NCBI GenBank assembly: GCA_947462335.1
Contig: OX381717.1
Coordinates: 50,883,523 to 50,947,522 of the forward strand
Source: Harmothoe impar
Lineage: Eukaryota > Annelida > Polychaeta > Phyllodocida > Polynoidae
Direction: 5' to 3'
Length of the DNA: 64,000 nt
Under the pieces are notes generated by a model. The model did not search any database. It worked only from the letters and a program-made list of their open reading frames with translations, and had not been told where the DNA came from. Below are positions 21,602-59,765 of the stretch, piece by piece. Numbering within the stretch: the first letter of the stretch is position 1; each line of letters opens with the position of its first letter. Made by a program: the position numbers and the translations under genes.

Positions 21602-24600
21602 ATGCCGGGAAACCCACGACACAGTAAATCCACTGCCTCTCCACGCAAGAAAGGTAAAGTTGGCACCCCTAGTCCTAGGAGAACCAGATCGGGTAAGAAA
21701 AATGGAGAAATTAATGTTCAGCGACAAGAAAATACCCAATTGAACGTTTTGGATCATGCCAAATTCTCCCAACCCACACCCACTCCCAAGGGGAAACGAT
21801 ATGAGGTCGCGCATGCGCAGGGACAAAACAAAGGAGCAGAAAGTTGGGACCAAAATCTTGAACCCGAGAGCTCTCAGTCCGTTTCGGAGAGCCCATCGAG
21901 CAAATACCGCAACTCAGTAGACAGTAAACACCTTAGGGGAGACGGTGTCACGCCCGAAAATACCGACTCTGCCCGCACAGCTGTGTTAAATGAAGGAAAA
22001 GACAATTACGCTACGCCAAAATCCCAACACCGGATGCCAAAACAACACAATGCCGCCATATTGGATCCCGCAGAGCAAGACGAGATCTCAGAGGAGACTG
22101 TTTTTTGTGATATCTCCCTACATGCACCGCGCCTCCCTCCGATGGTGGCCGAGCCCTCTACGGAAAGTACCGAACCAAGCGAAGGGGACGCCATTTCTCT
22201 CCACCACAACAGCACATCGAACACGCCCGACGGGGCGAGTTTACAAACACAAAATAAGGTAAACAGATCGCTTCAAATTACTTCCAGCCCTCCCGGTGGG
22301 GATGCAGGACAATACAGTAGTCATATTTCGGTCAACCAAAACGTAAATATAAACCAAATACAAGACGGTTTCCTTGCAATGTTAAATCGTAAATCCGACT
22401 CGGAGAAAGAAACCCTCACTCCACAGTCCTCCTCCGCGGAGTCCGCGCTAGGAAATGAATACACAACGATTGTACAAATGAATGTTACTAATGCTACTTC
22501 AGTTTCTCTTTCATCAAATGTCAAAGGTACCAACCATCCCGATGGGGAGTTTCCCGGTGGGGAATGGGTGTCAAAGAGCAGTCCCGACGGGGACTCAACA
22601 CTACCTGATGTACATACTGACAGCTACTCTACGAACGGGGACAGGACAGCGTCACAACCGCCAACATGCACTACACTGGGGGATGTCCATGCATGCTCGT
22701 CACAACCGCCAACATGCACTACACTGGGGGATGTCCATGCATGCTCATCTCAAGGCTTGACACCAGGCGAGGACCAATTGACGGGTAAGCTAGCATATAA
22801 TGAAGAGGGCAAAATTAATGGAGCACTTCATGTAAACCACAGCTCAGCCACACTAGATGGGAATAGCCCCATAAAAAGCCCCGTCACAAGTAGTTTCTAT
22901 GTGCATAAAAATGATGATAATGACTCTGGCCTGGATGCCAAATCGGACGTAGATGACAGTGACAATGAAAATGAACCAGGCAAGGTAGCACAGCAAGTCC
23001 AACTAAGGCACAAATTAGGTTTTAAAGAAATGCAAGATGTTCTGCTTGATCTCTCCCAGCAAGTCTCACCCAATGTAGAACAGGAGGAGAGGGACGTTCA
23101 AAACCACGACCCAGCCAGCAGTGTTGCCCAGAATACTCAGGAGTGGATAGAAGATAGCCCAGTCCCAATATCCACGCAGGAGGTAACTATCCAGAGCTCA
23201 ATACACTCACCAGGACACCTTCATTCAGCGCAATCTCATCAGGAGGGAGATAACACCGAATACATCCCGGCCTTTTGCTACCCACTAGATAGTCTTGACT
23301 TGAACAGTTCTGGTTATATGGGTGTGGAGGAAGCGGAATATGCACACGCTCACAACATAATGGGAACGGAACAAGCTGGGGACATGTCACTGGGACTGTA
23401 CATAGAACCCACTCCTGTCCAGCCCATCGCCAACACACTCAACTGCAACTCACCTCAGGGACGGGCAGACGATACTGACACACATGAATTGACTACACTT
23501 GAGTCAACTCTGGCGGGCACACAACAAAATGTGACAGTGCTACGGAACAAGGAGACAGATTATATGGGCTCTTTTACCTCGCACAACCTACAACTTGAGC
23601 AGGAGAAAGCAGAGAAAACGGGCCTAAAACCGGCTTCCATGCCACAGGGAAACTCAAATGCATACACACAAGACAGCACACGCAGCACCTCCTATGACTC
23701 CTCACAATATGCGCAGTTGAGCCATACGCAGAACTACTCACCCGATCAACATCAACATCACCACTCCCAAAGCCTGCTTGACAGTGAAGGATCAACAGTA
23801 GAAGAACTACTGTCGGGGGACCTGAAAGAGATGCAACATCACACCAATGATTGGTCGATAATTGATGACTCATATATTACTCCACAAAGAGAAAGAGAAG
23901 AAGGAAATGAGACCAAGCAGCGGACCTCAGAGAACAAAAATAAATCGACCCTATCAGCGATTGATGTAGCAATAGGATTATCCATGGGCCAACTACTTAG
24001 CAAAATGGACAAGCTGAACTCCAGGATGACGGACCTGGCCACAGACACTAAGAACAGAGCTCAGACCATGGAAGGAGGGATCAAGACAACCATAGTAGAC
24101 CAACTGCAGCCCATATCACAAAGCATTAATGAAATAAAGCAGCTGGCGGAAAATAACAGAGTAAAACTACAAGACCTGGATGGGAAGATAGCGGAGAATG
24201 AAGTAGAGATCAATAAACTGGGTGTACTGGCAACAGATCAGAAAAGAAAGATGGTCACAGTGGAGAACACATCTGTAGATGCTGCCTACAGGGTGTCTAA
24301 ACTTGCCACAGTCATGAGGAACATAACCAGCATGTTTGGTGAAAGATGTGATAATCTAGACACGACCAATATAACCAGCCAAGAAGAACTGAAGAACCTA
24401 ACACAGCAGCTACAACAGAAATCTATCCTAATAGACGGACTCACAACAGAAGTAGCTGCCCTAACAGAAATTACCAAGAAGAAAGCTGACAACGGAGCAA
24501 CAAATGATGACAGTGCTGTATTAAGGAAAATTGCTGTCATAAACAATAAGTTGGATGAGCAAGAAGACAAGATGAGAAGACTCATGGAAGAGAACAGATT

Positions 24601-26695
24601 ACTAGAGGAGAAATTAGGAAGAGCGCACAACGAGAGAAGAGGGAAAAGAGACGCGACCACAAGGCCTGCTACATCACCAGACTACAGCAGAGAATCCACA
24701 TATGTGGAGAGTGAGTACAAGGATGCCCTCACAGACCAAAGGCCAAAAATATTTGACAAACCCCATATAGACAGGAATCTGGTTGTAACAGACCTTCCGG
24801 AAACTGCAAGAGATGATCTGTATAGGCGCATCTTTGAGATGGCGAGAGACACGTACACACCGCTGCTCAATCGTGACATCATCCACATCCATCGAATGAG
24901 GCACCCCAAAACCCCGAGAAATCCATTCTCCACAACACCAATCAGAATATGCTTCAGCAATTACAGGGCAAGGCACAGATTCCTTGAAAATGCTTCTAAG
25001 AGACTACAGATTACAGGATCTAAAACCAAAGTGCAGGTAGAACAAACAAGAGAGAACATAAAGAAAATAAAGCAACTTCAATTCATTGCAGCGTTCAACG
25101 GGAAGCAAGGTCTGGAGACAGCGGTTGGCACCACTGAAATAAGAATAGGTGACACCTTCTACAGCACAAAGGATATTGATAATATACCACAGATGCTACT
25201 ACCCCCCACACTGAGGAAGAAAGGTGAGAGCATGGAAGTAGACATCCCAAGCAAGCCAAGTAACTCAACAGAAGAGAGGCAAAGGAAACAAGCGGAAGGG
25301 AGATACAGCAGGCTTCTAGAAGAGGCACTATCCCTGGAAAAAACAGGAAGAGAGAGCACTTCTACTCGCAATGACAGAAAGGAAGCACAAAAAGAGGCCC
25401 CAGCACACAAAGAAAGAACCAATGAGGTGAAGAGACAATACCACACCTCAAATGCAGAAATACCAGTCCTACCAATTTTACCCACAGACACCATAGTTGA
25501 AGTGTTAGAACCGAACGCAACCGACCCGAACCTCGTGCTCATATCTGCATCCGGTACAGTGCCGCGACCTTCAGAGACAGCAACGTTTCCCAAAAATGCA
25601 AGAAACATCACGGAATACAACAACACTGTTCAGAGACACGAAAAAACTGGCTCTTCAGACACAGTAAGTATTAGAGAAACTGAAGATCTAATACTATATT
25701 CCGGGGAAAGAGCCTTTCTTAGTAATTTTGCAAGAACTCCAATCACCTACAAAACGGAAGAGGGAGTGGAAAGGCGCTTTGTAAGTGTTGAACAAGCATA
25801 TGCATACTCGAAGGCAGTTTTTGCTAAAGACAAAGGCAGGCAACGTAGCTTATTAACTGAAGAAAGACCCACAAAAATAAAAGAGATCAGTGGGGAAATC
25901 CAGATAGAGAACCTGGGGAAGTGGCTCACCATCAGGGAAATCTTGATGTATGATTTGCTAAAGATAAAATTCACAACTCACACCGAACATGGCCAAGCCC
26001 TCACAGCCTCATACCCAAAGAAGCTGGTGGAGAGCACTTATAATCGGGAATGGGGCGGGGGTGAACCAATTTGGAGTGTAAAATATAACGATTTATCCTA
26101 TTCAGGTAACAATCTGCATGGTCGACTCCTGAACAAGACAAGGGACTACCTGAGACATCTTCACAACCCAGGCCCAGAACTCACACCACACACAAAGACG
26201 GTGGAAGGGACAAAAGATGAGACAGAACAGAGAGAAGAAATAGATGTGTACAAAAAAGACAGCACACCGGGTGTACAAACAGGTAGAAAATCAGAGGTAA
26301 ACTGGAGGGAAGCAAGGGAAGCAAGAAGCCCACCCAAGCGTGACCACTACCGAGGACACAGATCCAGGGACCACAGAGATCTCAGACACGTCAGGGACTT
26401 TGGAAGAGACACTAGTCACAGGAGAAGGTACAGGTCACACAGCCGAGAAACAAAGCATAGAACCTCAAGCCACTCAGAGAAAGACCGACACAGCAGAAGG
26501 TCTGAGAGGGAAGCAGGGCACAGAGACAGAAGGAGATCTAGCAGCAGAAATTGGAGAGAGACTGCGGACATAGTGTTCAGGAGTACTACCCATAATAAGA
26601 GTGAGGGTAGAACCCCACCAAAATACAGGGACTTCCAGAAATTTGACAGAGACAGAGGTAAACAGAACTACACTGTACTTGGCAGGAAGACATAA
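21602..26695 (+). CDS. E1 ORF1: coiled coil, RRM-like and NADAR domains
   Basis: 1697 residues. Residues 1-790 are low-complexity and Ser/Thr/Gln-rich, with an exact 16-residue tandem duplication (22653-22748). Residues about 795-1015 are heptad-like coiled coil. Residues about 1045-1205 resemble the L1 ORF1p RRM plus C-terminal RNA-binding module (NLVVTDLPE, IHIHRMRHP, PIRICFSNYRARHRFLE). Residues about 1360-1520 are a NADAR/YbiA-like domain, with landmarks FLSNF, SVEQAYAYSKA, LVEST followed by WGGG, and GNNLHGRLLN. Residues about 1580-1655 are Arg/Ser/His/Asp-rich, like SR-type tails. The likely role is an RNA-binding, oligomerising chaperone of the element RNA, with an added NADAR activity. 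NADAR proteins are reported to act on ADP-ribosylated guanine or riboflavin intermediates; activity here is untested. The stop codon abuts the ORF2 ATG (TAAATG). Confidence 0.85.
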   Translation: MPGNPRHSKSTASPRKKGKVGTPSPRRTRSGKKNGEINVQRQENTQLNVLDHAKFSQPTPTPKGKRYEVAHAQGQNKGAESWDQNLEPESSQSVSESPSSKYRNSVDSKHLRGDGVTPENTDSARTAVLNEGKDNYATPKSQHRMPKQHNAAILDPAEQDEISEETVFCDISLHAPRLPPMVAEPSTESTEPSEGDAISLHHNSTSNTPDGASLQTQNKVNRSLQITSSPPGGDAGQYSSHISVNQNVNINQIQDGFLAMLNRKSDSEKETLTPQSSSAESALGNEYTTIVQMNVTNATSVSLSSNVKGTNHPDGEFPGGEWVSKSSPDGDSTLPDVHTDSYSTNGDRTASQPPTCTTLGDVHACSSQPPTCTTLGDVHACSSQGLTPGEDQLTGKLAYNEEGKINGALHVNHSSATLDGNSPIKSPVTSSFYVHKNDDNDSGLDAKSDVDDSDNENEPGKVAQQVQLRHKLGFKEMQDVLLDLSQQVSPNVEQEERDVQNHDPASSVAQNTQEWIEDSPVPISTQEVTIQSSIHSPGHLHSAQSHQEGDNTEYIPAFCYPLDSLDLNSSGYMGVEEAEYAHAHNIMGTEQAGDMSLGLYIEPTPVQPIANTLNCNSPQGRADDTDTHELTTLESTLAGTQQNVTVLRNKETDYMGSFTSHNLQLEQEKAEKTGLKPASMPQGNSNAYTQDSTRSTSYDSSQYAQLSHTQNYSPDQHQHHHSQSLLDSEGSTVEELLSGDLKEMQHHTNDWSIIDDSYITPQREREEGNETKQRTSENKNKSTLSAIDVAIGLSMGQLLSKMDKLNSRMTDLATDTKNRAQTMEGGIKTTIVDQLQPISQSINEIKQLAENNRVKLQDLDGKIAENEVEINKLGVLATDQKRKMVTVENTSVDAAYRVSKLATVMRNITSMFGERCDNLDTTNITSQEELKNLTQQLQQKSILIDGLTTEVAALTEITKKKADNGATNDDSAVLRKIAVINNKLDEQEDKMRRLMEENRLLEEKLGRAHNERRGKRDATTRPATSPDYSRESTYVESEYKDALTDQRPKIFDKPHIDRNLVVTDLPETARDDLYRRIFEMARDTYTPLLNRDIIHIHRMRHPKTPRNPFSTTPIRICFSNYRARHRFLENASKRLQITGSKTKVQVEQTRENIKKIKQLQFIAAFNGKQGLETAVGTTEIRIGDTFYSTKDIDNIPQMLLPPTLRKKGESMEVDIPSKPSNSTEERQRKQAEGRYSRLLEEALSLEKTGRESTSTRNDRKEAQKEAPAHKERTNEVKRQYHTSNAEIPVLPILPTDTIVEVLEPNATDPNLVLISASGTVPRPSETATFPKNARNITEYNNTVQRHEKTGSSDTVSIRETEDLILYSGERAFLSNFARTPITYKTEEGVERRFVSVEQAYAYSKAVFAKDKGRQRSLLTEERPTKIKEISGEIQIENLGKWLTIREILMYDLLKIKFTTHTEHGQALTASYPKKLVESTYNREWGGGEPIWSVKYNDLSYSGNNLHGRLLNKTRDYLRHLHNPGPELTPHTKTVEGTKDETEQREEIDVYKKDSTPGVQTGRKSEVNWREAREARSPPKRDHYRGHRSRDHRDLRHVRDFGRDTSHRRRYRSHSRETKHRTSSHSEKDRHSRRSEREAGHRDRRRSSSRNWRETADIVFRSTTHNKSEGRTPPKYRDFQKFDRDRGKQNYTVLGRKT
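22653..22748 (+). repeat. 48-bp exact tandem duplication inside ORF1
   Basis: Two essentially identical 48-bp units encode SQPPTCTTLGDVHACS twice. The length is a multiple of three, so the frame is kept. The identity implies a recent duplication. Confidence 0.9.
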
Positions 26696-29200
26696 ATGAA
26701 CGCTCACGACATGGATCCCTCAAATGATACAGAATGGTACGGATCGGAAATGCCCATGGACCAAGAAATTGAACACTGCCTTATTTTATCTGATGGGAGG
26801 GTGACGAAAGAAGTACATGACAAAATAATCGGCACGCTAGACTTGAAGCTGGACACCAGATCACAAGAAGGAGCCAGGCTGCATGATTATGAGTGGATGC
26901 TAACGGAAGGTGAGCTGTCAACAAACACATACAACACTGTCATCATATGCCTTGGTATATTTGATATCCTCGGGGAGTATGAGGGAGCCCCTCTCTTCCG
27001 AAGAGATGAGGACTGGGTGTCTGCACACATAATGGATCGTTTTCACAGATTAAAGCAGAGCATTTTAACAGGGTCACCAAAAGCAAACGTACTGATAGCC
27101 ACCATTTTCTCTGCTGAGCTACAAAAAATTCCCACAGGAATCTACAGGGAAGGGGATCAAGAAAAATTGCATGACATCTTACAAAGAATCAACATAGAAA
27201 TCGGCCAGTTAGGGCATCATGCTGGACTTAGCATCCCCCATTTTGAGGCCCTGATCAGGGATAATAAGGCCAAAAAGAAAATTGGCAAATCTGATTACAG
27301 GTACCGGGCTCTTGAAGATGGCCTTTTCCCAAATGCAGCTTTAGGCCAGCAACTAGCCAATAAACTAATCAAGGCAATCCGCAAAATGAGAAGCGCAGTG
27401 CAAGAAAACCAATTGGCACCCCCTCCCCCCACACAAGACGAAGCTACGGAACAAGTTTATGTGCCAGACTGGACTGTAGAAAATGGCAGCGGGGAAAATT
27501 GGGATATAGAGCTGATGGATCAGGCCGAAAAGGCAGACACAGAGTCAGACGTGTATAGACAGAAGCACACAACCTGCGCAATATACCAACAACAGGATGG
27601 AGTCAAGTACAAAGCTGACGCACACCAACACTGGGAACAGGAGGAAACTTGGGAAAATGAAACAACCAGATGGGAAGAAGCAAAATCAGACTCCCTGCAG
27701 TACGCACATGGTAAAGCAAAGGATCTAACATGGGAGCAGACATATCAAGAGGGGCACATATCTCTGCAGCAAGACGTGTCATTCTCAGATGACATGGTAG
27801 AACAGCAGGGCGTATACCACCACACAAACAGGGAGCAGGAGTGTGGAGGATTGGAGCAGCGCACTACAGGACCATACAGTCAGAGCTCAGAGTACATTAA
27901 CTCCACCCCAAGAAGACACCACTGGGCTAAATCACCTGATGAGAATGACATGAGCCGAGAAGTCAGCGAAGGGAAGCGCTTTAAAATCCCAGCGCATGAA
28001 AGAAACCTGATAATAATAACCCAAAATGACAGTTCCACCTCCTCCGAGGATGAACAGACAGGCCCAAAAGTTACAAGTGTTTTCAGCAGGCTCCAAGGGT
28101 ATAATAATCCACAGCAGGATGCACTGGAATGGGAACCAAAGGTCATAGAGCAGGAAACAAGCATTACTCAAAGCACAGGGAAACAAAACACAAGTGAGAG
28201 TGTCCCCAAAAAACTGCACAACGAGACAAAGATGGGAGTTAAACCTGATCAAAAGATGACAGCATCCCGCCGAAATGCCACAAGCACAAACAGACCCCAC
28301 ACAGATAGGTCTAGTCCTGAAGAATGCATCAAGAAGCATGGTGTTTCAGAAAAGAAAGGGAAAATAGAAATCTTGAAGACAAACTGTGCACCGAAGACAG
28401 TAATCCATAGAAGGAAAAGAAAGGAAATAAGGAAGAAGGAAAGCAAGAATGGTAGGAAGAAATTTGACAGAATAGATTGCCCCAGCTCCACTGAGGACGA
28501 AGACAACGGAACCTCATCCTCACCTGATACCAGGGATTCCTCACCCTCCAGCACCTCCAGCTCATCTACCTCATCTAGCTCATCCAGATCCAGATCATCT
28601 GAACAGACCGAAAAGTCAGACCGGTATAACACATGTAGGTCAAGAAACTGTAGCAGCACTGACAGTGACTCACACAGTAGGGGTCCTGAAATAAAAAACA
28701 AAAGGACACAAAGCAGACTGCCCAGGAACCAAACAAGAGAAAGAAAGGACGACGTCACAACAGAACAGAACCAGCATGGGAAGGAATATAATCCTGGGAC
28801 AGTATGCTCGGCTATCAGGGACGTAAACTCGCCATACTACTTGCACTCCTGTACCGGTACTACATACTTAGAGCAGCTACTTCAAAAGCACCCTGAAATG
28901 ACCATAAAAGAATGGCTCGGGAAAAGTGTAGAAAGTACAATGGAACTCTTCCAAGAGGAAGAGCAAGGAGGATGGATACATAAGTCACGCCTGGAAAGAA
29001 AAGAATGGGTCAGAGAGTATCCTTTAAAAGCGGCAGCAGCCACCCTACATATGATCTGTGACAAGGAACCAAGAAGAAACATCACCAAGAGCACAGTAGT
29101 AAAAGATAAAGGGGGGAAAACAGGACTGATTGTCACAATAACAAGTCTACCAACCTACATGAAGAAAATGTGCAAAACCTACCCCATCATCAAGGGGTGA
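26696..29200 (+). CDS. E1 ORF2: SGNH-like domain protein with novel C-terminus
   Basis: 834 residues, starting directly after the ORF1 stop. Residues about 25-230 have the order of an SGNH/GDSL hydrolase: LILSDGR where block I (GDS) belongs, a hydrophobic strand with GIFD (87-90) at the GxND block, and DGLFPN near the C-terminal end where DxxH is expected. The nucleophile Ser context and the His are not canonical, so catalysis is doubtful. CR1/L2-type elements often carry an esterase domain in ORF1; here it is a separate ORF. Residues about 597-641 form a Ser-rich tract. The last 135 residues (about 698-834) look folded (DVNSPYYLHSCTGTTYLEQL, IKEWLGKSVESTMELFQEEE) and match no family I recognise. 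E2's ORF2 lacks this extension. Confidence 0.7.
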   Translation: MNAHDMDPSNDTEWYGSEMPMDQEIEHCLILSDGRVTKEVHDKIIGTLDLKLDTRSQEGARLHDYEWMLTEGELSTNTYNTVIICLGIFDILGEYEGAPLFRRDEDWVSAHIMDRFHRLKQSILTGSPKANVLIATIFSAELQKIPTGIYREGDQEKLHDILQRINIEIGQLGHHAGLSIPHFEALIRDNKAKKKIGKSDYRYRALEDGLFPNAALGQQLANKLIKAIRKMRSAVQENQLAPPPPTQDEATEQVYVPDWTVENGSGENWDIELMDQAEKADTESDVYRQKHTTCAIYQQQDGVKYKADAHQHWEQEETWENETTRWEEAKSDSLQYAHGKAKDLTWEQTYQEGHISLQQDVSFSDDMVEQQGVYHHTNREQECGGLEQRTTGPYSQSSEYINSTPRRHHWAKSPDENDMSREVSEGKRFKIPAHERNLIIITQNDSSTSSEDEQTGPKVTSVFSRLQGYNNPQQDALEWEPKVIEQETSITQSTGKQNTSESVPKKLHNETKMGVKPDQKMTASRRNATSTNRPHTDRSSPEECIKKHGVSEKKGKIEILKTNCAPKTVIHRRKRKEIRKKESKNGRKKFDRIDCPSSTEDEDNGTSSSPDTRDSSPSSTSSSSTSSSSSRSRSSEQTEKSDRYNTCRSRNCSSTDSDSHSRGPEIKNKRTQSRLPRNQTRERKDDVTTEQNQHGKEYNPGTVCSAIRDVNSPYYLHSCTGTTYLEQLLQKHPEMTIKEWLGKSVESTMELFQEEEQGGWIHKSRLERKEWVREYPLKAAAATLHMICDKEPRRNITKSTVVKDKGGKTGLIVTITSLPTYMKKMCKTYPIIKG

Positions 29201-35487: not shown

Positions 35488-35530
35488 GTCCGTAGTGACT
35501 AACATATCCAGGTCCATTATTATCAGTGTA

Positions 35531-49100: not shown

Positions 49101-49620
49101 TCATCAGTGGCCAGCAGGTCAATGTTGACATCGCCCATGATCCATATCTCTCGACCCTCCAGTAGGGGGCTCTTGCAGGTATCCAAAAGCAACCTTATGC
49201 ACTGGGCACATATGCCATTAGGTGGCCGGTAGACATGGATTACAGATAGTAGTCTGTGCTTTGGCTGTGTCACATTAATCACCTGGATTTCAATATCCTT
49301 GGTTGATTGACTTAAACCAGTTACTAGTGTACAGAATTCAGCAAGGGTGTTCTTAATGTAGCAGATAAGGCCGCCACCGGTTTTATCTACCACACAATCC
49401 ATTCTTATCGTTTGATAGTCAGGGATGAACACCTTGCTTGTAGGCAGTTCTTTGTGTAGCCAGGTTTCACTAACACAAATCATGTCAAATAGTTTTACAA
49501 GTTTACTTAGACCAACCATTTTGAGTAGCATGCTCCTGATATTGATATGTCCCAGTTTTAGGCCCTTCATTCCCATAAAGTCTTCCACTTTTACAGGCAT
49601 AATGTGATTTTAAATTTTAC
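46130..49620 (-). mobile_element. E3: non-LTR retrotransposon, 5'-truncated copy
   Basis: Minus-strand copy with one intact ORF (46685-49600) and about 550 bases of 3' UTR. The 3' end is judged from shared sequence with a short fragment at 50393-50466. It lacks poly(A); the last bases read like TTGCAAAATAAAAATAAATC. No ORF1 or ORF2 lies upstream, so the copy is probably 5'-truncated just before ORF3, or belongs to a one-ORF family. No target duplication was resolved. Confidence 0.75.
46685..49600 (-). CDS. E3 endonuclease and reverse transcriptase
   Basis: 971 residues. APE-type endonuclease first: HINIRS, VSETWLH, IMGDVNIDLL (about 155) and YLSDHLATF. Then RT: FLDVRKAFD, FGVPQGSILGPLLF and MYADD (about 691). 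The C-terminal SPLYRAIDMWNNLPP motif is the same as in E1 and E2. The frame has no stops or shifts, so the copy is recent or constrained even though upstream ORFs are absent. It nicks the target DNA and copies the element RNA in the nucleus. It is closer in style to CR1/L2-like elements than to L1 or RTE, but this needs an RT tree. Confidence 0.95.
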   Translation of the reverse strand: MPVKVEDFMGMKGLKLGHINIRSMLLKMVGLSKLVKLFDMICVSETWLHKELPTSKVFIPDYQTIRMDCVVDKTGGGLICYIKNTLAEFCTLVTGLSQSTKDIEIQVINVTQPKHRLLSVIHVYRPPNGICAQCIRLLLDTCKSPLLEGREIWIMGDVNIDLLATDDWKTKLYNKCMAGLPFNNLIYEITRPNPNPTAPGGTCIDLMATTCPIVSNSGVLPTYLSDHLATFATRKLYHVKPITRSITGQSYRHYDRIDFEDYILSINWDAFHREDDVNVKWSIMLSHIEAYLDEYCPIKDITFKDYNKPWLSKEILESIYERNQNMYEYCLNRAHNKPLLLRAQELRNIINKQCEYAKNQYFYDKLGQYSENPTKFWRQINILLGNLDQANPQIVLDYHHTGEELRGDRVPGYINEYFSTVGETLFNGLGATPKVSTYKPPSSLANHVSVLTHNDEVPYEEVLSTIRDIQTHKSSGIDNISARVLKDALLIMAPQLTSLINLCLEKVAFPVAWSCAKVVPLPKSGDLRDIGNWRPISLLPVPSKIMERVVYTRVYNWLESNNKITPCQFGFRASRGTGDAVFSVVNDLYRAKDRGETVAACFLDVRKAFDSIHHGELLHRLENLGIPKVYTNWFHSYLQNRGQRVLCNGSLSDHRKINFGVPQGSILGPLLFICFINSMPNVVKHCSVSMYADDVVFYVNHKSSLIAENLLQYDAHRIYNWFSTSGLSINTKKTEVVMFNSSSTVLPVIKMGGHTLTVKDEYEYLGIIIDNKLNFIKSVNKTISTANHRIFLLSKIRKMMPQKTAILIYIQTVLPVIEYCGLLYNGLTSKISKKLQYVQNRGLRVCLLTNMKHPVADLHKVCKVDYVDVRFDLQLLMLVHKYIHCDDLCAKSMGLLTEQNNPLHMATRSANTLKLIYLADVKLSYRKSPLYRAIDMWNNLPPACRLITSKNAFKLETLKLVRLKSEATRKK

Positions 49621-49789
49621 TTTGTGTGGTCGGTTTTGAGCCATTGTATATATTGATTGTGTCAAGGAACCAAGATGCATATATCGTCTTAAATCTAATG
49701 TGAGAAAAGTGCACAAAAGTGATCTAAGTGTGATCACGAGAATGAGCGAACATACAAACCAGGTGTACCCACACGGGGCAGTATTGATA

Positions 49790-50466: not shown

Positions 50467-50746
50467 GCGTACATATCCAATTTGTCACAATGTTTAGGGA
50501 CTAGTGCCCTTCACTTAGTGCTTATACATGCTGGGATAACAATGTTATCCATATTATATGGGTCGGATCTAAAAATGATGCAGATCTGGGGGTACTCATG
50601 GGCAAAACACAAAATTCAAAATTTCACTAAACAACTTTATTTTTTTTTAAAGGGTAGCATCTTGGCTCCCTGAGACCACTGTGGAACTCTGTTTTGCCCA
50701 AGAATGCAGTTTCTATTAACTGTCAACCACATGCTACCATAATCTT

Positions 50747-52596
50747 GAGGCGTCTGTGACATTAATGAAGAGTGCACTGCAGCAATCTCTTTTAAAGTGA
50801 CCTAGGACCTCCAAATTTTGTCTGCTATTTGGCTGATCATGTACCATTATTACTGGGAATTTTCAAAGCTTTAGGTCGCAAATTAAAAAAATGGTGGCAC
50901 TTTCAATTATGTGGAAATAAGAAAAATCCAAAGCAGTTTGTAACACTTTACCAACTTTAGCCTAGTTTCCTCAAACTTGCTCGGTTTACCATCAAAATAG
51001 CTGTGTAATATCTTCAATATGTCTAGTTCCCAAAATATTAATCCTTAGATAATGGTATTGGACCATCTGGCCACACCAGTCATTGCAATGTGGTGTTGAA
51101 TACTCTATTAACGTCACAGACGCCTCGAGACTCATAGCAATTCCCTAGAATCATCATAGAATCATCTCAAGTGTTCAGAACATGTTTAAAACTTACAAAC
51201 AAATACAAAACAGGTTACTGAACTATTTAATGCCAATATACGATGAGACATACCACTCTTAAATTATGCACTCAGTCTTTGAAAATTTAAAAAGTTACAT
51301 TTTCATCAGTTTTCACAACACAATCTGTGTAGCCATGTTAATAGAAATTCAACATCACAATGACATTTTTCCATCTCTTATCTGTAAGGCAAACCTTCTT
51401 ACAGTCATTTAAAACAATAATAATGACTATACCAGACCTCAGAGGTAAATACCAGCTGTCTGTGTGAGACCTATGCAAGAATTCATTAACGTCACAGACG
51501 CCTCATGTAGATATCATACATCATTAAGCACTTGAAACATAAAGTTTCTACTACGGCCAAAGCACCTTACTCATACTATAGATATATGATAGGGGCATGT
51601 TGTATTAAAATATTGGGAGGCTGGGTGCAGGAGTACTAGTCAATTCCTTCAATTATAGAATAATGAGGCGTCTTTGATGGAAATTAAATGGCCTTAAAAT
51701 GTAGATAAACTTTGAAAAATAAAAGGGTTTCTTGTATTATTTGGGTTCAGATTATTAGATTAGATGCCCCTAAAGCATGTGGTAAACTTACAGCATTCAA
51801 TTCAATTAAGTAGTCCATGTATAGCAGACATTCAATTTTTCTCTGAGGCGTCTGTGACAAAAACTCATGAATGCATAAAATGACATGAAATTGCCAGAAA
51901 AAAGCACAGCCGGGTAAATGTAGCAGCCTAAAATGATGAAGGGGGGTGTGCAGATGGTACATAAATCATAGAATATTATGCTTGGATGGCCTTTTGGAAG
52001 ATGGTACTATAACTCCTGACGAAATTTCATAGATTTTCAAGAACTGGTTCTAAAAGTGCCAACAGTATAAGTATAATCAAATTGGTTCATAGAAAAAACT
52101 ACACACAAGAGTAGAGGAACATCTATTCTACCCATTAAAGTCAGTGTATACCACTAGGGACCCATATTTCATGGGCCAAGACCAATTTGTATATACACGC
52201 ATTACTGTCACAGACGCCTCCGTTACTGTCACAGACGCCTCACTGGTATACAAATACAGCATCCACAAGGTACAGAGGGTATTTATCAATGAAAAAGCTG
52301 TTGACAATCCATCAACATATCCATATAAGGGTAATAGATACAAAAAGATTTGAATGAAAACATGAATATATGCTTGAGAGGGTATAAGGTGTTAAGTGTC
52401 TGTGACTGTTTTACAGAATTTGTTCTGGAAGTGCCCAAAATATAACCTTAATCACATGGGATCGTAACAAAACTACACAGAGGGGATGAGGAACATCTAT
52501 TTTATTCTTTTCAGTTGATATTTACCACCAGTGACCCATATTTCATGTGCTAGGACCAATTTTCCTTGTCCTTTCATTACTGTCACAGACGCCTCA
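50747..52596. repeat. Satellite with alternating 20-bp motif, left block
   Basis: The motif GTCACAGACGCCTC occurs plus-strand at 51113, 51491, 52207, 52228 and 52582, and minus-strand at 50747, 51845 and, degenerate, 51665 and about 52387. Spacing is about 170-190 or 360-380 bases. The intervening sequence is also repeated: 52034-52206 aligns with 52410-52581, and 52242-52400 aligns with 60333-60500. So this is a tandem array of about 370-bp units, each with inverted motif pairs. The MITE-like pairing could also mean nested TIR elements. Confidence 0.8.
52577..52596 (+). repeat. Left 20-bp target-site duplication of E2
   Basis: TTACTGTCACAGACGCCTCA, identical to 60314-60333. It is itself the satellite motif, so a pre-existing tandem motif is an alternative explanation. 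Confidence 0.75.
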
Positions 52597-52903
52597 GATA
52601 ACCATGGCGGATTACGAGTGACCACCTGTAAGAGCTCTCCCGATGTATAGACGTTGCTAGTGGACGGATACCTGTTAGGTCATATTTAACCTGCAATTAT
52701 TGTATCTAAAGACTCTGAGCCTGGACTAAAGACCTCTTGAAAGCATCTAATCTTACCAAATGTGAGTTTGAGGTGTTTTTCTTCTACGTATGCACACCGT
52801 GTGTGAGGCTTACCGGCTACGTTCCGCTTGAGTCGCCCGCTGCTACCTGGACTCTGTGTTATATAATTGAACCACCGGGTCAGTTTGCGGACGCAAATCA
52901 ACA

Positions 52904-55483
52904 ATGGCTGAATATGGTCGGGGCGGTCACGACGGTGGTCATCACAGATTCAACCCAGAGGATGACTATATCTACTACGGTCGTCAGGACGATGGTCAAT
53001 GTCTGGATGACTATGGACATGTGAGTAGAAATGAGGGACCACGCCTTGGTTCTTTGACTGATAAAACTCTCTGGCCTAGTGTGAGGGAACAGTATGGTGG
53101 CAACATGAATGGCGGCAGGGACCAGTCACGGGATAGGAAGCGTCTTAGACAACCGAGTGATGAGTCTCCTCCTACCTGTGCCCCAAATGGTCGTCAATAT
53201 AACAAGCCACCGCCGAAAAGAGTATTTACTAATAGTAATTATGGGTCTGATCTGACATATGACTCAAATAACAATGGCTATATGCCTTCTAAGCCTAGGA
53301 ATGTCACTGCTATGGGTGATCCAATGCAACGTGGTTTTGAGGATCTCAAAGCAACAATGCAGGGCTCATTTGACAAGGTGAATTTGAAAATTGACAGAAA
53401 TACTGATGCCATGCAGGGCAGGATCAATTCACTTGACAAGAAATTTAGTGCAGCACATGCTGAAACTAAGAATGAAATTGAGTCACTCCGAGGCCTAGTC
53501 CTACGTAATAAGTCTGATATTGCTAAGGGCATAGCTCATACAAACTACAATAGTGGTGATGCTGACAAGTCTGACCAAAATCAGGGTGACAGATTCTTCT
53601 CCCCCCGACGATTTAATATACTAATTGAGGGTCTGGAGGAAGGTACTGACACTCAGCCTCACGAGGATGTGCTAACATTCCTTGCAAACCTGAACTTTGA
53701 TATTGATCCACAGGAACTGAGACTGGTAAAAAGGTTAAATAGGCAGAATGGAGGTGATGATGGTTCCCCCCGTCCACTACTGGTGTGCTTTGCAACGGCA
53801 TGGAGACGAGATGAGTGTCTTCGTTTAAAGCTGACCCTCATCAAAAATCCGGGCCGATACCGTAATGTGTACATCAATGCGGATGAAGATGTATCTACAC
53901 GTCGAGTTAAACGTGTTATACGGAACATTGCACGACACTGCAGAATGAATGAGGATTGTATGGTCCAACTGAAGGGTACCAACATTGTGATAAATGGTGA
54001 CACTTATGATGGCTACCAGATTAATACCATTCCTGACAGATGGAAACCACATGATCTACGGTTTGGGAATATAAATCGTGAACTATTCTCCAGCGATGAG
54101 GCAACTGGTCGTGGCAGGGATATACTTCGTGGTGGGGCTAGAGTACGCTTCCATGATGGTAGTGGTGGTAGTACTCACGGCCCCCATGGTGCTTCCCATG
54201 ATCGACAAGGTGTATCGAGACACGGTCAGCATGACAGGAGGAGGAATGAAGAAGACCTTCAGCCACATGGCCGGGCAGTACAGCGTGACAGGTCTATGAA
54301 TATTAAATCAACATATGTATCCAGAGGTGATGCTGACCTACACTGGCGTACATCACCGAGGAGTACCCCCTCTACATCTGGTTCTGCATACAATGACAAT
54401 GACGGTAATATGCTCCCAATCAATAAAATTGCTGAGTTTGAAAAGGAGAGATCTCTAAAAAACTTTAGTACATCGACTCCCATCACGGCTAGTAGTAGTA
54501 GGCCTACCTATGTTGATCTGAAAGAGGGTGATGATGGTGCATGGGACATGGGATCTTTTGAGAAACAGCCTTCAATCCATATACCATCTGTGACCCCTGA
54601 CTCAACACGCGCTACCGTGGTGCCGAAATCAGGTCAGGCTGGAATATCCAAAGCTGCTAAACGAGGTAGACCTAAGAAAAATACCTCCAAAACCAAGCAA
54701 GTTCTATCTATTAAAGAAAGGATTGCTCAAGCAATTGAAATTGCCAAAGGTGGACCCCTGAACATGAGAAGGACACCATCAGGTATTGTTTTCAATGGTG
54801 CGAGGAGTTTCCTGTCCAATTTCCATCCTTGCTTAATAGTGCATAATAAACAGGAATTCCACAGCAGTGAACAATTGTACCAATATGAACGTTGTATGTA
54901 TAATGATGATGCTGATAGAGCCTCTGAGGTGTTAGACACTGTAACTGGCTATCAAGCAAAGAGAGCTGCTGAAGGTTTAGATGAGAAACCTGATTGGGAG
55001 GAGGATCGTGTACCGGTAATGAGGATGAGCCTCAACAAGAAATACATTCAGAACCCAATCAAGAAGAGGGCACTGTCTGATACACGTAATATTGACTTGA
55101 TTGAGTCTACTATGGACCCTTTCTGGGGGGCCAAAGCCAAGTTTGACAGTAAATTATTTGATAACGGCAACTACAAAGGACGTAATGTCCTCGGTAAACT
55201 ACTGATGGAGGTGCGCCACTCGCTACGTGACTCTACCATAGTGAACGCGGTGACTGGCAAGGCGCCAAACAACGCTGAAGATCTGGTGGAGAGCGGTGCG
55301 GCGTCCCGGGTAACGCGTAGCATGGGGGCGGAGAGTGAGAATGCGAGTCTCGCCGTGCCCGAGAGTTCAAACGTGAATCAGGACGGGATTGCAAATGGCG
55401 AAGATGAATCAACTTTGTGTGCCGATCGGGCATCATTATCACCGGAATCATCGATCGAGGGCATCTGTAGCAACAATGGCTAG
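52904..55483 (+). CDS. E2 ORF1: coiled coil, RRM-like and NADAR domains
   Basis: 859 residues. Residues 1-135 are Asp/Arg/Gly/Asn-rich. About 138-205 is heptad-like coiled coil. About 237-380 is an L1 ORF1p-like RRM and C-terminal module (FNILIEGLEEGTD, LRLVKRLNR, RPLLVCFATAWRRDECLRLK, VYINADEDVSTRRVKRVIRN). A Ser/Gly/His-rich linker follows. About 627-775 is a NADAR domain: GARSFLSNFHP, FHSSEQLYQYERC, LIESTMDPFWGAKAKFD and GRNVLGKLLMEVRHSL. The Asp before WG, typical of the family, is kept here (in E1 it is not). Order and content match E1 ORF1 despite low sequence identity. Its stop (TAG 55481-55483) overlaps the ORF2 start by eight bases (ATGGCTAG), suggesting termination-reinitiation. Confidence 0.88.
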   Translation: MAEYGRGGHDGGHHRFNPEDDYIYYGRQDDGQCLDDYGHVSRNEGPRLGSLTDKTLWPSVREQYGGNMNGGRDQSRDRKRLRQPSDESPPTCAPNGRQYNKPPPKRVFTNSNYGSDLTYDSNNNGYMPSKPRNVTAMGDPMQRGFEDLKATMQGSFDKVNLKIDRNTDAMQGRINSLDKKFSAAHAETKNEIESLRGLVLRNKSDIAKGIAHTNYNSGDADKSDQNQGDRFFSPRRFNILIEGLEEGTDTQPHEDVLTFLANLNFDIDPQELRLVKRLNRQNGGDDGSPRPLLVCFATAWRRDECLRLKLTLIKNPGRYRNVYINADEDVSTRRVKRVIRNIARHCRMNEDCMVQLKGTNIVINGDTYDGYQINTIPDRWKPHDLRFGNINRELFSSDEATGRGRDILRGGARVRFHDGSGGSTHGPHGASHDRQGVSRHGQHDRRRNEEDLQPHGRAVQRDRSMNIKSTYVSRGDADLHWRTSPRSTPSTSGSAYNDNDGNMLPINKIAEFEKERSLKNFSTSTPITASSSRPTYVDLKEGDDGAWDMGSFEKQPSIHIPSVTPDSTRATVVPKSGQAGISKAAKRGRPKKNTSKTKQVLSIKERIAQAIEIAKGGPLNMRRTPSGIVFNGARSFLSNFHPCLIVHNKQEFHSSEQLYQYERCMYNDDADRASEVLDTVTGYQAKRAAEGLDEKPDWEEDRVPVMRMSLNKKYIQNPIKKRALSDTRNIDLIESTMDPFWGAKAKFDSKLFDNGNYKGRNVLGKLLMEVRHSLRDSTIVNAVTGKAPNNAEDLVESGAASRVTRSMGAESENASLAVPESSNVNQDGIANGEDESTLCADRASLSPESSIEGICSNNG

Positions 55484-56165
55484 CTCGGTAACGTCAATAC
55501 CCATGACGGGAAAACGTGTCTTGATGGCTGGCGATGACAGGTTGTTTTTTCTTGATGAATTCATGAATGAAGCAACCCGCGACTCGTATAAGATTCGGTG
55601 CATGCCTTCAGCGAAGGTCAAGGACGTAGCTGATTTGTTGTCAGCACATCTTCTCGACTGTACGTATGACGTTGTGATCGTCTCTGCAGGTGTAAACAAC
55701 ATTGCTAATATCATCTATGGTAATCAAAGACGTGGCACTAAACGCAGTCTGTCTTTGGTGACTACTGATATCGACATCGCGGTGTCTTCATTGATGTGTG
55801 AATATATAGATCTTGTGACACGTATCAGGACAATCGACAATAATGTTGAAGTATTGATTCCGACTGTCAACAGTATTTGCATGGCGCAGGCTAACACTGA
55901 TGATGACTATAGCCTCCAGCCTATAAGCCACCCACACCAAACGATTTGTGAGATGATTTTTGAGACATTGAATCGATCAATTGTGGGCTACAATCAGCAT
56001 CGTGGGTCTAACACTCCCCGTGTGGACTTATGCTTCCAAGGACTCAACCATCACAATCGCTGGGTCCATAAATACCATAGGCTCCATGACGGTGTGAGGA
56101 CTATATATGAGGATATGCGTCGTGTGGCACTGTGTCTGCAGTCTGGTGTTGAATGTTTGGATTGA
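55476..56165 (+). CDS. E2 ORF2: SGNH-like domain protein
   Basis: 229 residues from the ATG at 55476, chosen because it overlaps the ORF1 stop and directly precedes the conserved strand; an in-frame ATG at 55389 would add 29 residues translated from the ORF1 overlap. SGNH-like order: KRVLMAGDDR (block I, with Asp21 where the nucleophile Ser of GDS would be), VIVSAGVNNI (block III, residues about 67-76) and QGLNHHNRWVH with DGV near the end. The degenerate nucleophile matches the situation in E1 ORF2 and argues for a binding rather than an esterase role. It is expressed downstream of ORF1 as a small separate protein. Confidence 0.75.
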   Translation: MASSVTSIPMTGKRVLMAGDDRLFFLDEFMNEATRDSYKIRCMPSAKVKDVADLLSAHLLDCTYDVVIVSAGVNNIANIIYGNQRRGTKRSLSLVTTDIDIAVSSLMCEYIDLVTRIRTIDNNVEVLIPTVNSICMAQANTDDDYSLQPISHPHQTICEMIFETLNRSIVGYNQHRGSNTPRVDLCFQGLNHHNRWVHKYHRLHDGVRTIYEDMRRVALCLQSGVECLD

Positions 56166-56900: not shown

Positions 56901-59765
56901 TTGGTAATGTCTTATATAGATTATAATCAATTGGTCCAACATAGAGGACTGCGTCTAATTAGTTTCAATGCCCAGAGTCTGCGTAGCAAAATAGACCGAC
57001 TCAGGAAACTTAACTTGGATGTTGATCACATAAGTATTTCTGAATCTTGGTTGGATGCTTCGGACCCGGACTGGGCTGTGGACCTGACAGGGATGCACCT
57101 TTTTAGGAATGATAGGCTTAATGCTGAACGTAAGAGTGGGGGCGTTGCCTGTTATGTCCCTGATGTGTATCTCCCTTTCACCACTGTTCGTGATGACCTG
57201 TCCTGTATGGACAATGATTTAGAATGTTTGGCCATTGAGACTAAATATCCTGGACATAAATTTAGAATTATTCTGACTGTTTATCGTCCGCCGAAAAATT
57301 CAAATGTAAATCGTGGATACTCAAAATTACAGAAATTGTTGAAAAATCACCAACTTAGAAACAGAGAGGTGTGGGTGCTAGGTGACCTAAATGTAGATAG
57401 TAGTCATCGCAACAGTGCCAAATGTAGGACTATGTTTAAGTTTCTGAAAAGTGCAAAGTTGAAATATTACCAGACAAAGTCTACTTACTTTCACAGATAT
57501 GGCAAGTCTACCCTGGACCATTGCTATACTAATTGTGTTCATGTGGACAGGTTGGGACTGATTAATGACATGTTCGGGGACCATGTTCCTGTATATGTCG
57601 TTAAAAAGCAGGCATCTGTGGTGAAAATCAAGGAGACAAAAAAGGTGACTGGTAGAATATATAAGCACTATAAGTTTGATGATACCAAATCTTTTGTGAA
57701 CGATATGGATTGGAGATTGGCTGAAATGAGGTCGGCTCTGGATTGTGTTGAATTTATTACTTCAGGTCTAACTGCATATTTAGACACGAATCATCCTATC
57801 AAAACTTTCATTGTGACTACTCACGGTCCTGATGGCTTCTCCCCAGCTGTGGAACGCCTGATACAAAGAAAGAAACGGTATTTAAAACGTTCTCGTAAAA
57901 TAAGACCAGGTGTGGTGAATGATCATATAGATACTGTTAGGTTACTTGATAGACAAATACGTTTGTTGTTGGTGAAAAACTGTAAAAACAACATTAAGGA
58001 CAAGTTGAACCGATTTGGAGATGACCCAAAAAGGTTCTGGGCTGAAGTTAATACGGTTTGGCGTGGTCCCAAGAAGGTTACTCCAATGAAATTGGTTGGC
58101 GATGACGGTGTCTGTATTGCTGCTAATAATCAATCTGATTTGGTAAACAATTATTACAGTGGAATAGGCGCTAAGTTAGCGTCTGTTTTCCCAACCAACC
58201 CAGGTGTTACACAACTGACGAGTGATGATGTGATCTTGGATAGACCTTGTTTCCATCTAGTCAACGTCACACTTGAGCAGTCTATGAAGTTGGCAGCCAA
58301 GATCAAAACTAACAAATCCTCCTGTATTACTAACATTAGGACTTGTGTACTCAAAGATACTTTTCTGGTTAAGCCCGATCTGCTGAAAAAATTAATTAAT
58401 TTGTCTTTTGATGATGGTTTTTTCCCCTGCACTTTGAAAAGTGCAGTGGTAATACCGCTGCCAAAGGGTGGTGATCTGACCAAGGTGACCAACTGGCGCC
58501 CTGTTAGCCAGCTAAGCCTATACTCCAAACTAATAGAGAAGGCAGTGCATGGTCAGCTAATGTCATACCTCCTACGGCATGGAATTATTAATGATAGTCA
58601 ATTTGGTTTTATGCCAGGAAGATGTACTGGTGATGCAGTGTTTGGCCTAGTCCAGGATTTGTTTACTAGTAGGAACAGGGGGGAGGTGGCGGCTGTTGTC
58701 TTCCTCGATCTGAGGAAGGCTTTTGACACAGTCGACCACCTCCTACTCATAAATGAATTATGCAAAATTGGTTGTGACGATGAAAGTCTGTTGTGGTTCA
58801 AAAGCTATCTTGAAGGTCGGAGTCAATGTACAATAGTGGATGGGGTTATTTCTAGTGCCCGGAGTATTAATTGCGGAGTACCCCAAGGGTCGGTGCTAGG
58901 ACCCCTCCTTTTCAATATATATATTAATAGTGTAGTTACGTGTCTCCAACATGCATCATACTTTATGTATGCAGATGACCTGGCGATAGCAGTGAGCAAC
59001 AAGGACCCAGATATGGTATGTGCCCTTATACAAGAAGATCTAGATCGTGTAAGCGAGTGGTGTGTAAAATATAAATTGACTGTGAATTCAGACAAGACTC
59101 ATGTACTCTGGAGTCATTCGGATAATGACCCAAGGTGTGGAGGCGTCCGTGATATTACTCTATCTGGCAAGAGGCTACATGTTGTTAACTCTTTCAACTA
59201 CTTGGGTGTGTCAATTGATAGCGGACTGTCCTTTTCTGTACATTGTGGGAAATATATTAATTCGGTCAGAGCTAAGTTGACACACCTACGTAGGCTAAAG
59301 AAGTATATGGGTTTTGACTTAGCACTCTTATTATATAAGCAGATGGTTCTTCCCTGCTTGGAGTACTGTGACTTTGCGCTGGAATGTGGCCCTGATGATT
59401 CTGTCAAATATCTTCAGACCTTGCAGAACCATTGTCTGCGTTGTTGTCTGGGAGTCATTGATCCCAGGGCAATTAGTATAGATGATCTGCACGGTGAATG
59501 CTCCTTGGAGAGACTGGCTACTAGAAGAGCTAATAATCTACTTGGTATGATGTATAAGTATAGCAGGAAACCTGATGTACTAGTGGTGCCGAACAGGGTG
59601 CTTCGAAGTAATGCTAAGTTGCTGATCAGGGTTCAACGACCCAAGAGTCAGCTGTATAGGGATAGTCCCCTTTATAGAGGTGTGGCCCTATGGGACAAAC
59701 TGCTACCTGAAGAGCAATATATCGAGACTTATGCTCTCTTTATGAGCAAGATAAAGACCCGGTAA
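56901..59765 (+). CDS. E2 ORF3: APE endonuclease and reverse transcriptase
   Basis: 954 residues. Endonuclease landmarks: FNAQSLRSKI, ISESWLD, VLGDLNVDSS (about 160) and FGDHVPVY (about 227). RT landmarks: FLDLRKAFDTVDH (about 601), CGVPQGSVLGPLLF and MYADD (about 690), then SPLYRGVALWDKLLP near the C-terminus. No RNase H domain. The ATG at 56901 has a second ATG three codons on; either could be used. The endonuclease would be the determinant of the apparent insertion into the satellite motif. Intact and probably functional. Confidence 0.95.
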   Translation: MVMSYIDYNQLVQHRGLRLISFNAQSLRSKIDRLRKLNLDVDHISISESWLDASDPDWAVDLTGMHLFRNDRLNAERKSGGVACYVPDVYLPFTTVRDDLSCMDNDLECLAIETKYPGHKFRIILTVYRPPKNSNVNRGYSKLQKLLKNHQLRNREVWVLGDLNVDSSHRNSAKCRTMFKFLKSAKLKYYQTKSTYFHRYGKSTLDHCYTNCVHVDRLGLINDMFGDHVPVYVVKKQASVVKIKETKKVTGRIYKHYKFDDTKSFVNDMDWRLAEMRSALDCVEFITSGLTAYLDTNHPIKTFIVTTHGPDGFSPAVERLIQRKKRYLKRSRKIRPGVVNDHIDTVRLLDRQIRLLLVKNCKNNIKDKLNRFGDDPKRFWAEVNTVWRGPKKVTPMKLVGDDGVCIAANNQSDLVNNYYSGIGAKLASVFPTNPGVTQLTSDDVILDRPCFHLVNVTLEQSMKLAAKIKTNKSSCITNIRTCVLKDTFLVKPDLLKKLINLSFDDGFFPCTLKSAVVIPLPKGGDLTKVTNWRPVSQLSLYSKLIEKAVHGQLMSYLLRHGIINDSQFGFMPGRCTGDAVFGLVQDLFTSRNRGEVAAVVFLDLRKAFDTVDHLLLINELCKIGCDDESLLWFKSYLEGRSQCTIVDGVISSARSINCGVPQGSVLGPLLFNIYINSVVTCLQHASYFMYADDLAIAVSNKDPDMVCALIQEDLDRVSEWCVKYKLTVNSDKTHVLWSHSDNDPRCGGVRDITLSGKRLHVVNSFNYLGVSIDSGLSFSVHCGKYINSVRAKLTHLRRLKKYMGFDLALLLYKQMVLPCLEYCDFALECGPDDSVKYLQTLQNHCLRCCLGVIDPRAISIDDLHGECSLERLATRRANNLLGMMYKYSRKPDVLVVPNRVLRSNAKLLIRVQRPKSQLYRDSPLYRGVALWDKLLPEEQYIETYALFMSKIKTR

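Follow-up and report, generated by a model that had tools for sequence, protein, structure and literature searches.

NADAR domains with a conserved active site in the ORF1 proteins of two divergent LINE-type retrotransposons of Harmothoe impar, and their possible action on element nucleic acid

Results

Two retroelements with the same order of reading frames

We analysed a stretch of 64,000 nucleotides (the window, 64 kb of a genome that spans 1.51 Gb and 736 contigs) from the annelid Harmothoe impar (GCA_947462335.1, contig OX381717.1, positions 50,883,523 to 50,947,522). The window contains two retroelements, E1 and E2, in which the protein encoded by the first open reading frame (ORF1p, ORF1) carries a NADAR domain near its end. 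In both, ORF1 is followed by a putative SGNH-like ORF2 and then by an ORF for an endonuclease (EN) and a reverse transcriptase (RT). A third EN-RT ORF, E3, lies between them on the opposite strand. The features, in window positions, are as follows.

21602-26695, + strand: E1 ORF1, an open frame of 1697 amino acids (aa)
25709-26155, + strand: E1 NADAR domain, ORF1 residues 1370-1518 (PF08719, E 6.8e-16, 59.4 bits)
26696-29200, + strand: E1 ORF2, 834 aa, SGNH-like in its N-terminal part
31952-34843, + strand: E1 EN-RT ORF, 963 aa (RVT_1, E 1.5e-36)
52904-55483, + strand: E2 ORF1, an open frame of 859 aa
54803-55228, + strand: E2 NADAR domain, ORF1 residues 634-775 (PF08719, E 4.1e-23, 82.9 bits)
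55476-56165, + strand: E2 ORF2, 229 aa from its ATG, SGNH-like
56901-59765, + strand: E2 EN-RT ORF, 954 aa counted from a TTG (RVT_1, E 5.8e-39)
46685-49600, - strand: E3, third EN-RT ORF, 971 aa

The shared order, and the positions of the two ORF1s, agree with an earlier note made from the sequence alone. In both elements the stop of ORF1 adjoins the start of ORF2, as a TAA/ATG junction in E1 and an overlap, ATGGCTAG, in E2. The three EN-RT ORFs are 30-32% identical to each other in pairwise comparison over their full length, and a three-row profile built from them aligned with human L1 ORF2p over positions 14-768 (E 5.2e-28); L1 and R2 were the only LINE (long interspersed nuclear element) proteins among the matches listed in this PDB search. 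Endonuclease families matched the third ORFs of E1 and E2 at E 1.2e-5 and 0.0027, both below the cut-off. Judged by the presence of an ORF encoding both EN and RT, E1 and E2 are retrotransposons of the LINE type, which lack long terminal repeats (LTRs). The EN-RT ORFs are short (954-971 aa) and end in a SPLYR..W..LP-type motif, which we take to be CR1/L2-like rather than Tx1-like.

The NADAR domain and its active site

Both NADAR domains score well above the PF08719 gathering score of 35.1. The E1 domain also matched a Phytophthora nicotianae NADAR (PDB 8bau) by sequence at E 6.1e-6, and for E2 the YbiA/NADAR fold was found with a strong structural match. The assignment of a NADAR domain to both ORF1 proteins, which the earlier note had made subject to such profile and structural matches, is therefore well founded. 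TIGR02464, an equivalog family for riboflavin N-glycosidases with a cut-off of 73.7 bits, was passed by E2 (79.7 bits) and narrowly missed by E1 (69.4 bits).

Following the numbering of 8bau (PMC11543638), the catalytic places E43, K50 and E125 are occupied by E1397, K1404 and E1477 in E1 and by E656, R663 and E734 in E2. The residues E43, K75, W89, R93, E125 and W133 are retained in both proteins, as the earlier note had supposed for the core of the domain, while D130 is Asn in E1 and Asp in E2, and the R79 place holds Gly in E1 and Glu in E2. Among columns with an invariance of 95% or more in 56 non-LINE rows, the two domains are identical in 17 of 25, against 22 of 105 columns elsewhere (Fisher p 1.3e-5; positions filled in fewer than 45 of the 56 rows were dropped, and the region of W133 is partly misaligned for E1). 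Glu at position 125 marks the YbiA subfamily of NADARs (PMC11543638), and it is found in all 26 LINE rows described below, E1 and E2 included; the Asp of DarT1-linked NADARs is absent from this place. The Arg of E2 at the K50 place has a counterpart in the K95R mutant of the Escherichia coli C7 NADAR, which retained hydrolysis in vitro (PMC11543638).

Purifying selection and descent with the reverse transcriptase

The LINE rows comprise 20 sampled regions of the same genome, four further loci (L089-L092), E1 and E2; some are near copies, and two (L100 and L109) are included although their RTs were unseen. Median NADAR identity is 28% among the 19 rows compared, and E43, W89 and E125 are each kept in 26 of 26. 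The K50 place holds Lys in 25 rows and Arg in one, the K75 place Lys in 25 and Gln in one; D130 is Asp in 19 rows and W133 is Trp in 21. The R79 place is more varied (Asp 9, Glu 6, Lys 4, Arg 3, Gly 2, Ser 1, Met 1).

The ratio of nonsynonymous to synonymous change (dN/dS) was 0.07-0.15 in near copies with dS of 0.10-0.27, and two pairs whose dS exceeded 2 gave 0.18 and 0.20; no ratio could be formed for two near-copy pairs that differ by a single, non-synonymous change, and the remaining listed pairs were beyond measure. Relatives of E2 found in a DNA search behaved similarly. Against L114-L118, E2 gave 0.06-0.11 and against L122, which bears a stop, 0.11, values that are rough at dS of 1.8-2.1; three pairs among these relatives, at dS of 0.05-1.5, gave 0.12-0.13, and for 13 further relatives of E2 dS was beyond measure. 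The NADAR domain is under long-term purifying selection. The low dN/dS and the residues kept across the LINE rows together bear out the selection that the earlier note had suspected.

NADAR and RT pairwise distances were strongly correlated (Mantel r 0.918 over 19 rows, reached by none of 5,000 permutations), which indicates that the two descended together. Nearest relatives agree between the two proteins, E1 with L107 and L108 and E2 with L110, and the NADAR domain has been retained next to RTs whose identity to one another falls as low as 33%. BLASTP of E1 against E2 aligned both the NADAR domains (27% identity, E 4e-12) and the EN-RT proteins (31% identity across 962 columns, E 1.7e-142), so the earlier view that joint descent is visible only in motifs does not hold. 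Within ORF1 the BLASTP alignment covers the NADAR domain only, with about 40 residues before it in one direction.

NADAR-bearing LINEs in the genome

A family search of the genome gave 3,484 first-look candidates, a figure that is not a count of confirmed domains; 150 were scored, and all 150 exceeded the cut-off with no internal stop. Around some of these hits we chose by hand 20 regions of 10 kb each, all from the + strand, so as to cover a range of scores and ORF lengths. An EN-RT-like ORF lies downstream on the same strand in 18 of the 20, one of them (L097) with a weak match of 26% over 272 aa, and the RT palm was recovered in 17; for L100 and L109 none was seen within the 10-kb stretch. 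The four further loci L089-L092 are likewise followed by an EN-like ORF on their own strand. Since sampling ran from NADAR to RT, these counts say that the NADAR ORFs are LINE ORFs and not that every related RT has a NADAR domain. The four best-scoring hits (L085-L088) have short frames, three of them within 27 kb on one contig (C21), and look like solo NADAR genes of the host type, making them candidate host NADARs; an RT-like fragment before the frame of L085 makes its solo status less sure.

The DNA search with the E2 domain found E2 itself and 19 other matches of 64-77% identity. With tblastn the domain could be read in all 19, over 109-154 of 172 residues in L129-L131, and it is free of stops in 18, with one stop in L122. 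E656 is kept in 18 of 18 covering rows and E734 in 19 of 19. The earlier note had held that absence of the domain from other full-length copies of both families would refute it. The E2-type matches, which were found through the domain itself, speak against such an absence for the E2 family only.

Origin of the domain

In a 48-row tree (simpler model, P0004 left out) the LINE rows, the solo genes of this genome and the Phytophthora NADAR were split from 15 bacterial and phage-type rows with support of 100/99. A split of such rows from the eukaryotic ones had support of 95/96 in an 85-row tree and 98/95 in a 27-row tree of every fourth locus. All are rooted at the midpoint only, with several long branches and few eukaryotic solo NADARs. 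We considered a recent phage or bacterial origin and rejected it, as the trees place the LINE NADARs with the eukaryotic branch. In the 85-row tree the five LINE-type rows do not form one clade, well-supported branches forcing two changes; in the 27-row tree a single LINE clade was not rejected (p 0.57). We scanned 83 NADAR loci of viruses and bacteria (80 retained from a set of 107, and 3 more), and none matched the RTs of E1-E3 or the ORF2 proteins at E 0.001; an RT search in viral contigs gave 47 stretches, none confirmed. A further search (A2) found two loci, both on contigs already in this set.

In a large protein database, ORF1 residues 600-790 of E2 and 1090-1540 of E1 gave no match at E 0.001 (380 and 6,764 candidates, respectively), and the E2 domain alone gave four proteins from 63 candidates. 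Three of the four, P0001, P0002 and P0004, look like the C-termini of LINE ORF1 proteins, judging by what precedes the NADAR domain, which in each closely follows the end of a region like the C-terminal domain (CTD) of LINE-1 ORF1p. The N-terminus of P0001 aligned with the putative E2 module described below better than any of 1,000 shuffles; 11 shuffles equalled its alignment with the E1 module, and 28 that of P0004 with E2. P0001 and P0002 group with the solo genes and Phytophthora (95/92, 48-row tree), closer to the solo genes than the other LINE rows are, and are perhaps of the kind reported from oyster.

Other parts of ORF1

Upstream of the NADAR domain the earlier note had read a coiled coil and a module like the RNA recognition motif (RRM). 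The candidate modules are as follows.

24752-25225, + strand: putative E1 RRM/CTD-like module, residues 1051-1208, aligning with the E2 module
53600-54049, + strand: putative E2 RRM/CTD-like module, residues 233-382, order β-α-β-β-α-β in a low-confidence model

The alignment of the two modules was matched by 6 of 1,000 shuffles, and neither ORF1 protein had a hit to an RRM or L1-ORF1 (PF02994) family in Pfam. The AlphaFold model of the E2 module has a mean pLDDT of 51.6. In Foldseek the central domain of human LINE-1 ORF1p (2w7a) had the highest probability among the matches listed, 0.75, ranking third with E 0.31, and none of those listed reached E 0.001. PDB sequence searches with the RRM regions returned nothing for E1 (the query starting inside the module) and only an unrelated chain for E2 (E 0.087). 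For the coiled coil, a home-made heptad score for the presumed region was equalled by 6 of 300 shuffles in E1 and 13 of 300 in E2, where the best heptad window of the entire protein lies elsewhere, at residue 331. Thus of the three parts read in ORF1 the NADAR domain (PF08719) stands, whereas the RRM has no Pfam hit and the heptad score is weak.

ORF2 and the spacer

An ORF does directly follow ORF1, as the earlier note had stated, but its SGNH character is less certain. Lipase_GDSL_2 was the top family for the N-terminal part of ORF2, below the cut-off in both E1 (E 0.072) and E2 (E 0.013), and for the whole E1 ORF2 the only family listed was Sulfotransfer_3 at the far end (E 0.011). The alignment of the two N-terminal parts was matched by 8 of 1,000 shuffles. 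The Ser and His motifs that we presume to be usual for SGNH enzymes look lost in both. Between the NADAR ORF and the RT, 13 of the 20 sampled regions have an ORF of at least 130 aa, of which that in L097 reads like an endonuclease, that in L111 is of low complexity and that in L096 is without recognised content; in 3 of the 20 (L105, L107 and L110) a stretch matches the E1 or E2 ORF2 at E 0.001. Pfam searches of ORF2 from seven relatives found GDSL in one (L105, E 0.0099, below the cut-off) and not in the other six, L102 giving DUF707 at E 0.067. By eye, what we take to be the GDS motif is present in L105, L107 and L112, with DGxH also in L105 and L112. It is possible that the enzyme was once active and that its residues were then lost in E1 and E2.

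In E1, ORF2 and the EN-RT ORF are separated by a gap of 2.75 kb, which contains a hairpin array.

29810-31179, + strand: array of 11 copies of the hairpin GCTC-GNNG-GAGC in the E1 gap

Ten of the copies are exact and one is mismatched, and a looser scan adds two with two mismatches; since two bases of the loop are unconstrained in the pattern, part of the stem constancy is built in. Over the window we observed 12 matches with at most one mismatch, 11 of them in this gap, where 0.81 were expected window-wide. On the RNA the array may serve protein binding or ribosome entry. No Rfam family reached its gathering threshold in the window.

Limits of the elements and neighbouring sequence

35467-35487, + strand: A-run seen in the sequence, probable 3' end of E1
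52577-52596, + strand: TTACTGTCACAGACGCCTCA, possible target-site duplication to the left of E2, identical to 60314-60333
60314-60333, + strand: right copy of the same possible duplication, identical to 52577-52596

E1 would be a single element of 14 kb if its ORFs belong together across the 2.75-kb gap, and no convincing target-site duplication was found when looked for around it. For E2 the flanking pair of TTACTGTCACAGACGCCTCA is accompanied by eight more copies (up to three mismatches) in the window, all near E2. Altogether the 20-bp motif occurs ten times, in both orientations, at 50746-52596 and 60314-60678. These copies look like the ends of a small DNA transposon, with E2 sitting between two identical ones. 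E3 has no ORF of at least 100 aa preceding it on its own strand up to 52700. RTs about 50% identical to that of E3, in L096, L105 and L111, have a NADAR ORF upstream, and for this reason E3 may be a truncated member of the group.

Pieces of a galactosyltransferase gene are duplicated in the window, at 16078-16797 and 19243-19566 (PF01762, E 3.7e-33), and the second copy resembles the first up to 19650 and again from 35533. E1 is contained in the 15.9-kb stretch 19650-35530, whose borders (19650-19663 and 35517-35530) carry a 14-bp inverted repeat, TACACTGATAATAA, that could be due to chance (BLAST E 0.024). Just upstream of E1, at 20124-21017, are dense irregular tandem repeats, mostly with units of 14-17 bp such as ACATCTACCCCCTGG. 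An Ig V-set match in the window (E 1.2e-4) was below the cut-off, as was a weak QRICH1 match (E 0.0015) to fragments at 61558-63899 on the - strand. The same fragments contain a GHK..SL..Y stretch that we take to resemble a tyrosine recombinase, perhaps from a Crypton-type element.

Discussion

A possible eraser of guanine ADP-ribosylation in the LINE particle

NADARs cleave ADP-ribose off guanine, in DNA as well as in RNA (PMC11543638, PMC11833690). Among the hydrolases tested in one study only NADARs reversed guanosine ADP-ribosylation on RNA, the human macrodomain and ARH enzymes failing on this mark (PMC11833690), and an activity that ADP-ribosylates guanine N2 in DNA has been reported in six edible clams (PMC11209040). 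A retroelement in a host with guanine ADP-ribosylation would gain from erasing the mark. E1 and E2 have a near-complete active site. Our reading, to which we give a probability of about one half, is that ORF1p carries a working NADAR glycohydrolase that acts on the nucleic acid of the element. ORF1p would coat the element RNA through its RRM/CTD-like module, placing the NADAR domain on the RNA and the nascent complementary DNA (cDNA). There it would free guanine of ADP-ribose, or of a comparable N-linked ribosyl adduct, a mark that would otherwise block translation or reverse transcription. If the mark came from an ADP-ribosyltransferase of the host or the environment, the domain would serve the element as a repair or counter-defence module. 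The domain itself we trace to eukaryotic members of the family and not to a recent transfer from bacteria or phages. In the proposed mechanism every step beyond the conserved active site is inferred. The stripping of ADP-ribose that the earlier note proposed fits that active site and the published guanine chemistry, and to this extent it stands as a proposal.

Several observations weigh against this reading. The R79 place is acidic in 15 of the 26 LINE rows and Arg or Lys in only seven, and R93 is Arg or Lys in just 14. R79 contacts the pyrophosphate in 8bau (PMC11543638), and its place stays Arg or Lys in the four solo-type genes. On the adenosine side, neither E1 nor E2 retains Y84 or D86. 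Together these changes suggest that the ADP part may be bound differently, and the common acid at R79 is the strongest sign of a possible substrate unlike the known one. The K95R mutant comparable to E2 no longer rescued cells from toxin (PMC11543638). The RRM/CTD-like module is weakly supported, and with it the RNA binding that it would provide. Finally, the sampled regions came from the top of a score-ranked list, which favours conserved copies, and were picked by NADAR, not by RT.

The changed pyrophosphate side of the pocket, and the TIGR02464 scores of E2 and, nearly, E1, would suit an active enzyme that cuts a small N-riboside, such as a riboflavin intermediate, a free ADP-ribose derivative or a signalling nucleotide, for instance blunting an NAD-based immune signal. 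Low-molecular targets have been proposed for phage NADARs, and macromolecular ones have been assigned to NADARs of eukaryotic RNA viruses (PMC9503650). Fusion to a probably RNA-binding ORF1p favours a nucleic-acid target, and we consider a small substrate unlikely. The binding-side residues unlike those of 8bau might belong to a reader of the mark, which would bind RNA, DNA or protein carrying ADP-ribose, catalyse little or nothing and steer the particle, for example to PARP-marked DNA breaks that serve target-primed reverse transcription. The roles of ORF1p are mostly in binding, and ZAP, a PARP-family protein, reportedly restricts human LINE-1, both of which speak for a reader. A pure reader would be unlikely to keep both distal-ribose acids, E43 and E125, in 26 of 26 rows, and we regard this explanation as rather improbable.

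A role in defence of the whole cell, and not of the nucleic acid of the element, would resemble that of bacterial NADARs, which are antitoxins to DarT1 and YarT (PMC11125620). The domain would counter an ADP-ribosyltransferase that the host or one of its parasites makes as a toxin, in a form of addiction or mutualism. The guanine-modifying activity of clams is in keeping with this (PMC11209040). The E125 place speaks against it, holding the Glu of the YbiA type where DarT1-linked NADARs have Asp, though the YbiA type also includes the YarT antitoxin (PMC11125620). We give this only a slight probability. Slighter still is the chance that the domain is a folding or protein-contact module with an incidental pocket. 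The SGNH-like ORF2, seemingly without the catalytic residues that we recall for such enzymes, would suggest that dead enzyme folds are tolerated in these elements; conservation of the NADAR domain centred on family-invariant and pocket positions argues against a merely structural role.

Returning to removal of ADP-ribose from element nucleic acid, a wider proposal, that the whole of one LINE assemblage in an animal carries a de-ADP-ribosylase as a standing counter-defence, is in our judgement tentative and somewhat unlikely. If true, guanine ADP-ribosylation of RNA or cDNA would be an unrecognised layer of animal immunity against transposons, and an arms race with LINEs would have largely driven the evolution of animal NADARs. 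The physiological roles of eukaryotic NADARs, including those of animals, have been called unclear (PMC11125620), and E1 and E2 would give the domain an obvious substrate in cis, the RNA and cDNA of the element itself. This raises the testable question of whether animals ADP-ribosylate transposon nucleic acid and whether transposons erase the mark.

Comparison with known systems

The NADARs of Phytophthora nicotianae (8bau) and E. coli (YbiA, 2b3w) are found outside retroelement proteins, and R79 and the adenine-side residues of the former differ in the domains described here. In a known NADAR-bearing LTR retroelement the domain lies in Pol and a bacterial source has been suggested, whereas the LINE rows described here group with eukaryotic NADARs. 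NADAR is reported in Gypsy elements of Ectocarpus (PMC12477816). If the evidence for the other ORF1 parts holds, weak as it is, their plan is like that of the LINE-1-like (Tnp22) ORF1 of L2/CR1 lineages, with coiled coil, RRM and CTD (PMC4120745). The domains listed in that survey of 448 Jockey-superfamily elements are RRM, CCHC, PHD, Tnp22, esterase, leucine-zipper and zinc-finger, with NADAR absent (PMC4120745). The zebrafish element ZfL2-1 likewise has an enzyme domain added to its particle protein, an SGNH esterase in ORF1 (PMC3905857). The enzyme is a different one, and in E1 and E2 the SGNH-like protein is a separate ORF2 that looks inactive.

The closest precedent is found in several Tx1 LINE families of Crassostrea gigas, which likewise have a NADAR-like domain in ORF1, found as divergent hits of a Repbase query and suggested to act in the processing of the RNA intermediate (PMC12477816). 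The architecture, whose novelty the earlier note had left undecided, has thus been reported in part. Among the papers listed in our search of the literature on NADAR in transposable elements, which reached few subscription papers and no preprints, this was the sole relevant report; a paper on bivalve transposable elements (PMC10294476) does not use the word NADAR in its main text. The available passages on the C. gigas families are without analysis of the active site, selection, copy number or co-descent with the RT (PMC12477816). A NADAR domain in a LINE ORF1 is therefore known in outline, and what is new, as far as our searches reach, is the assemblage and its scale, the evidence from the active site and from selection, and the common descent of the NADAR domain with the RT.

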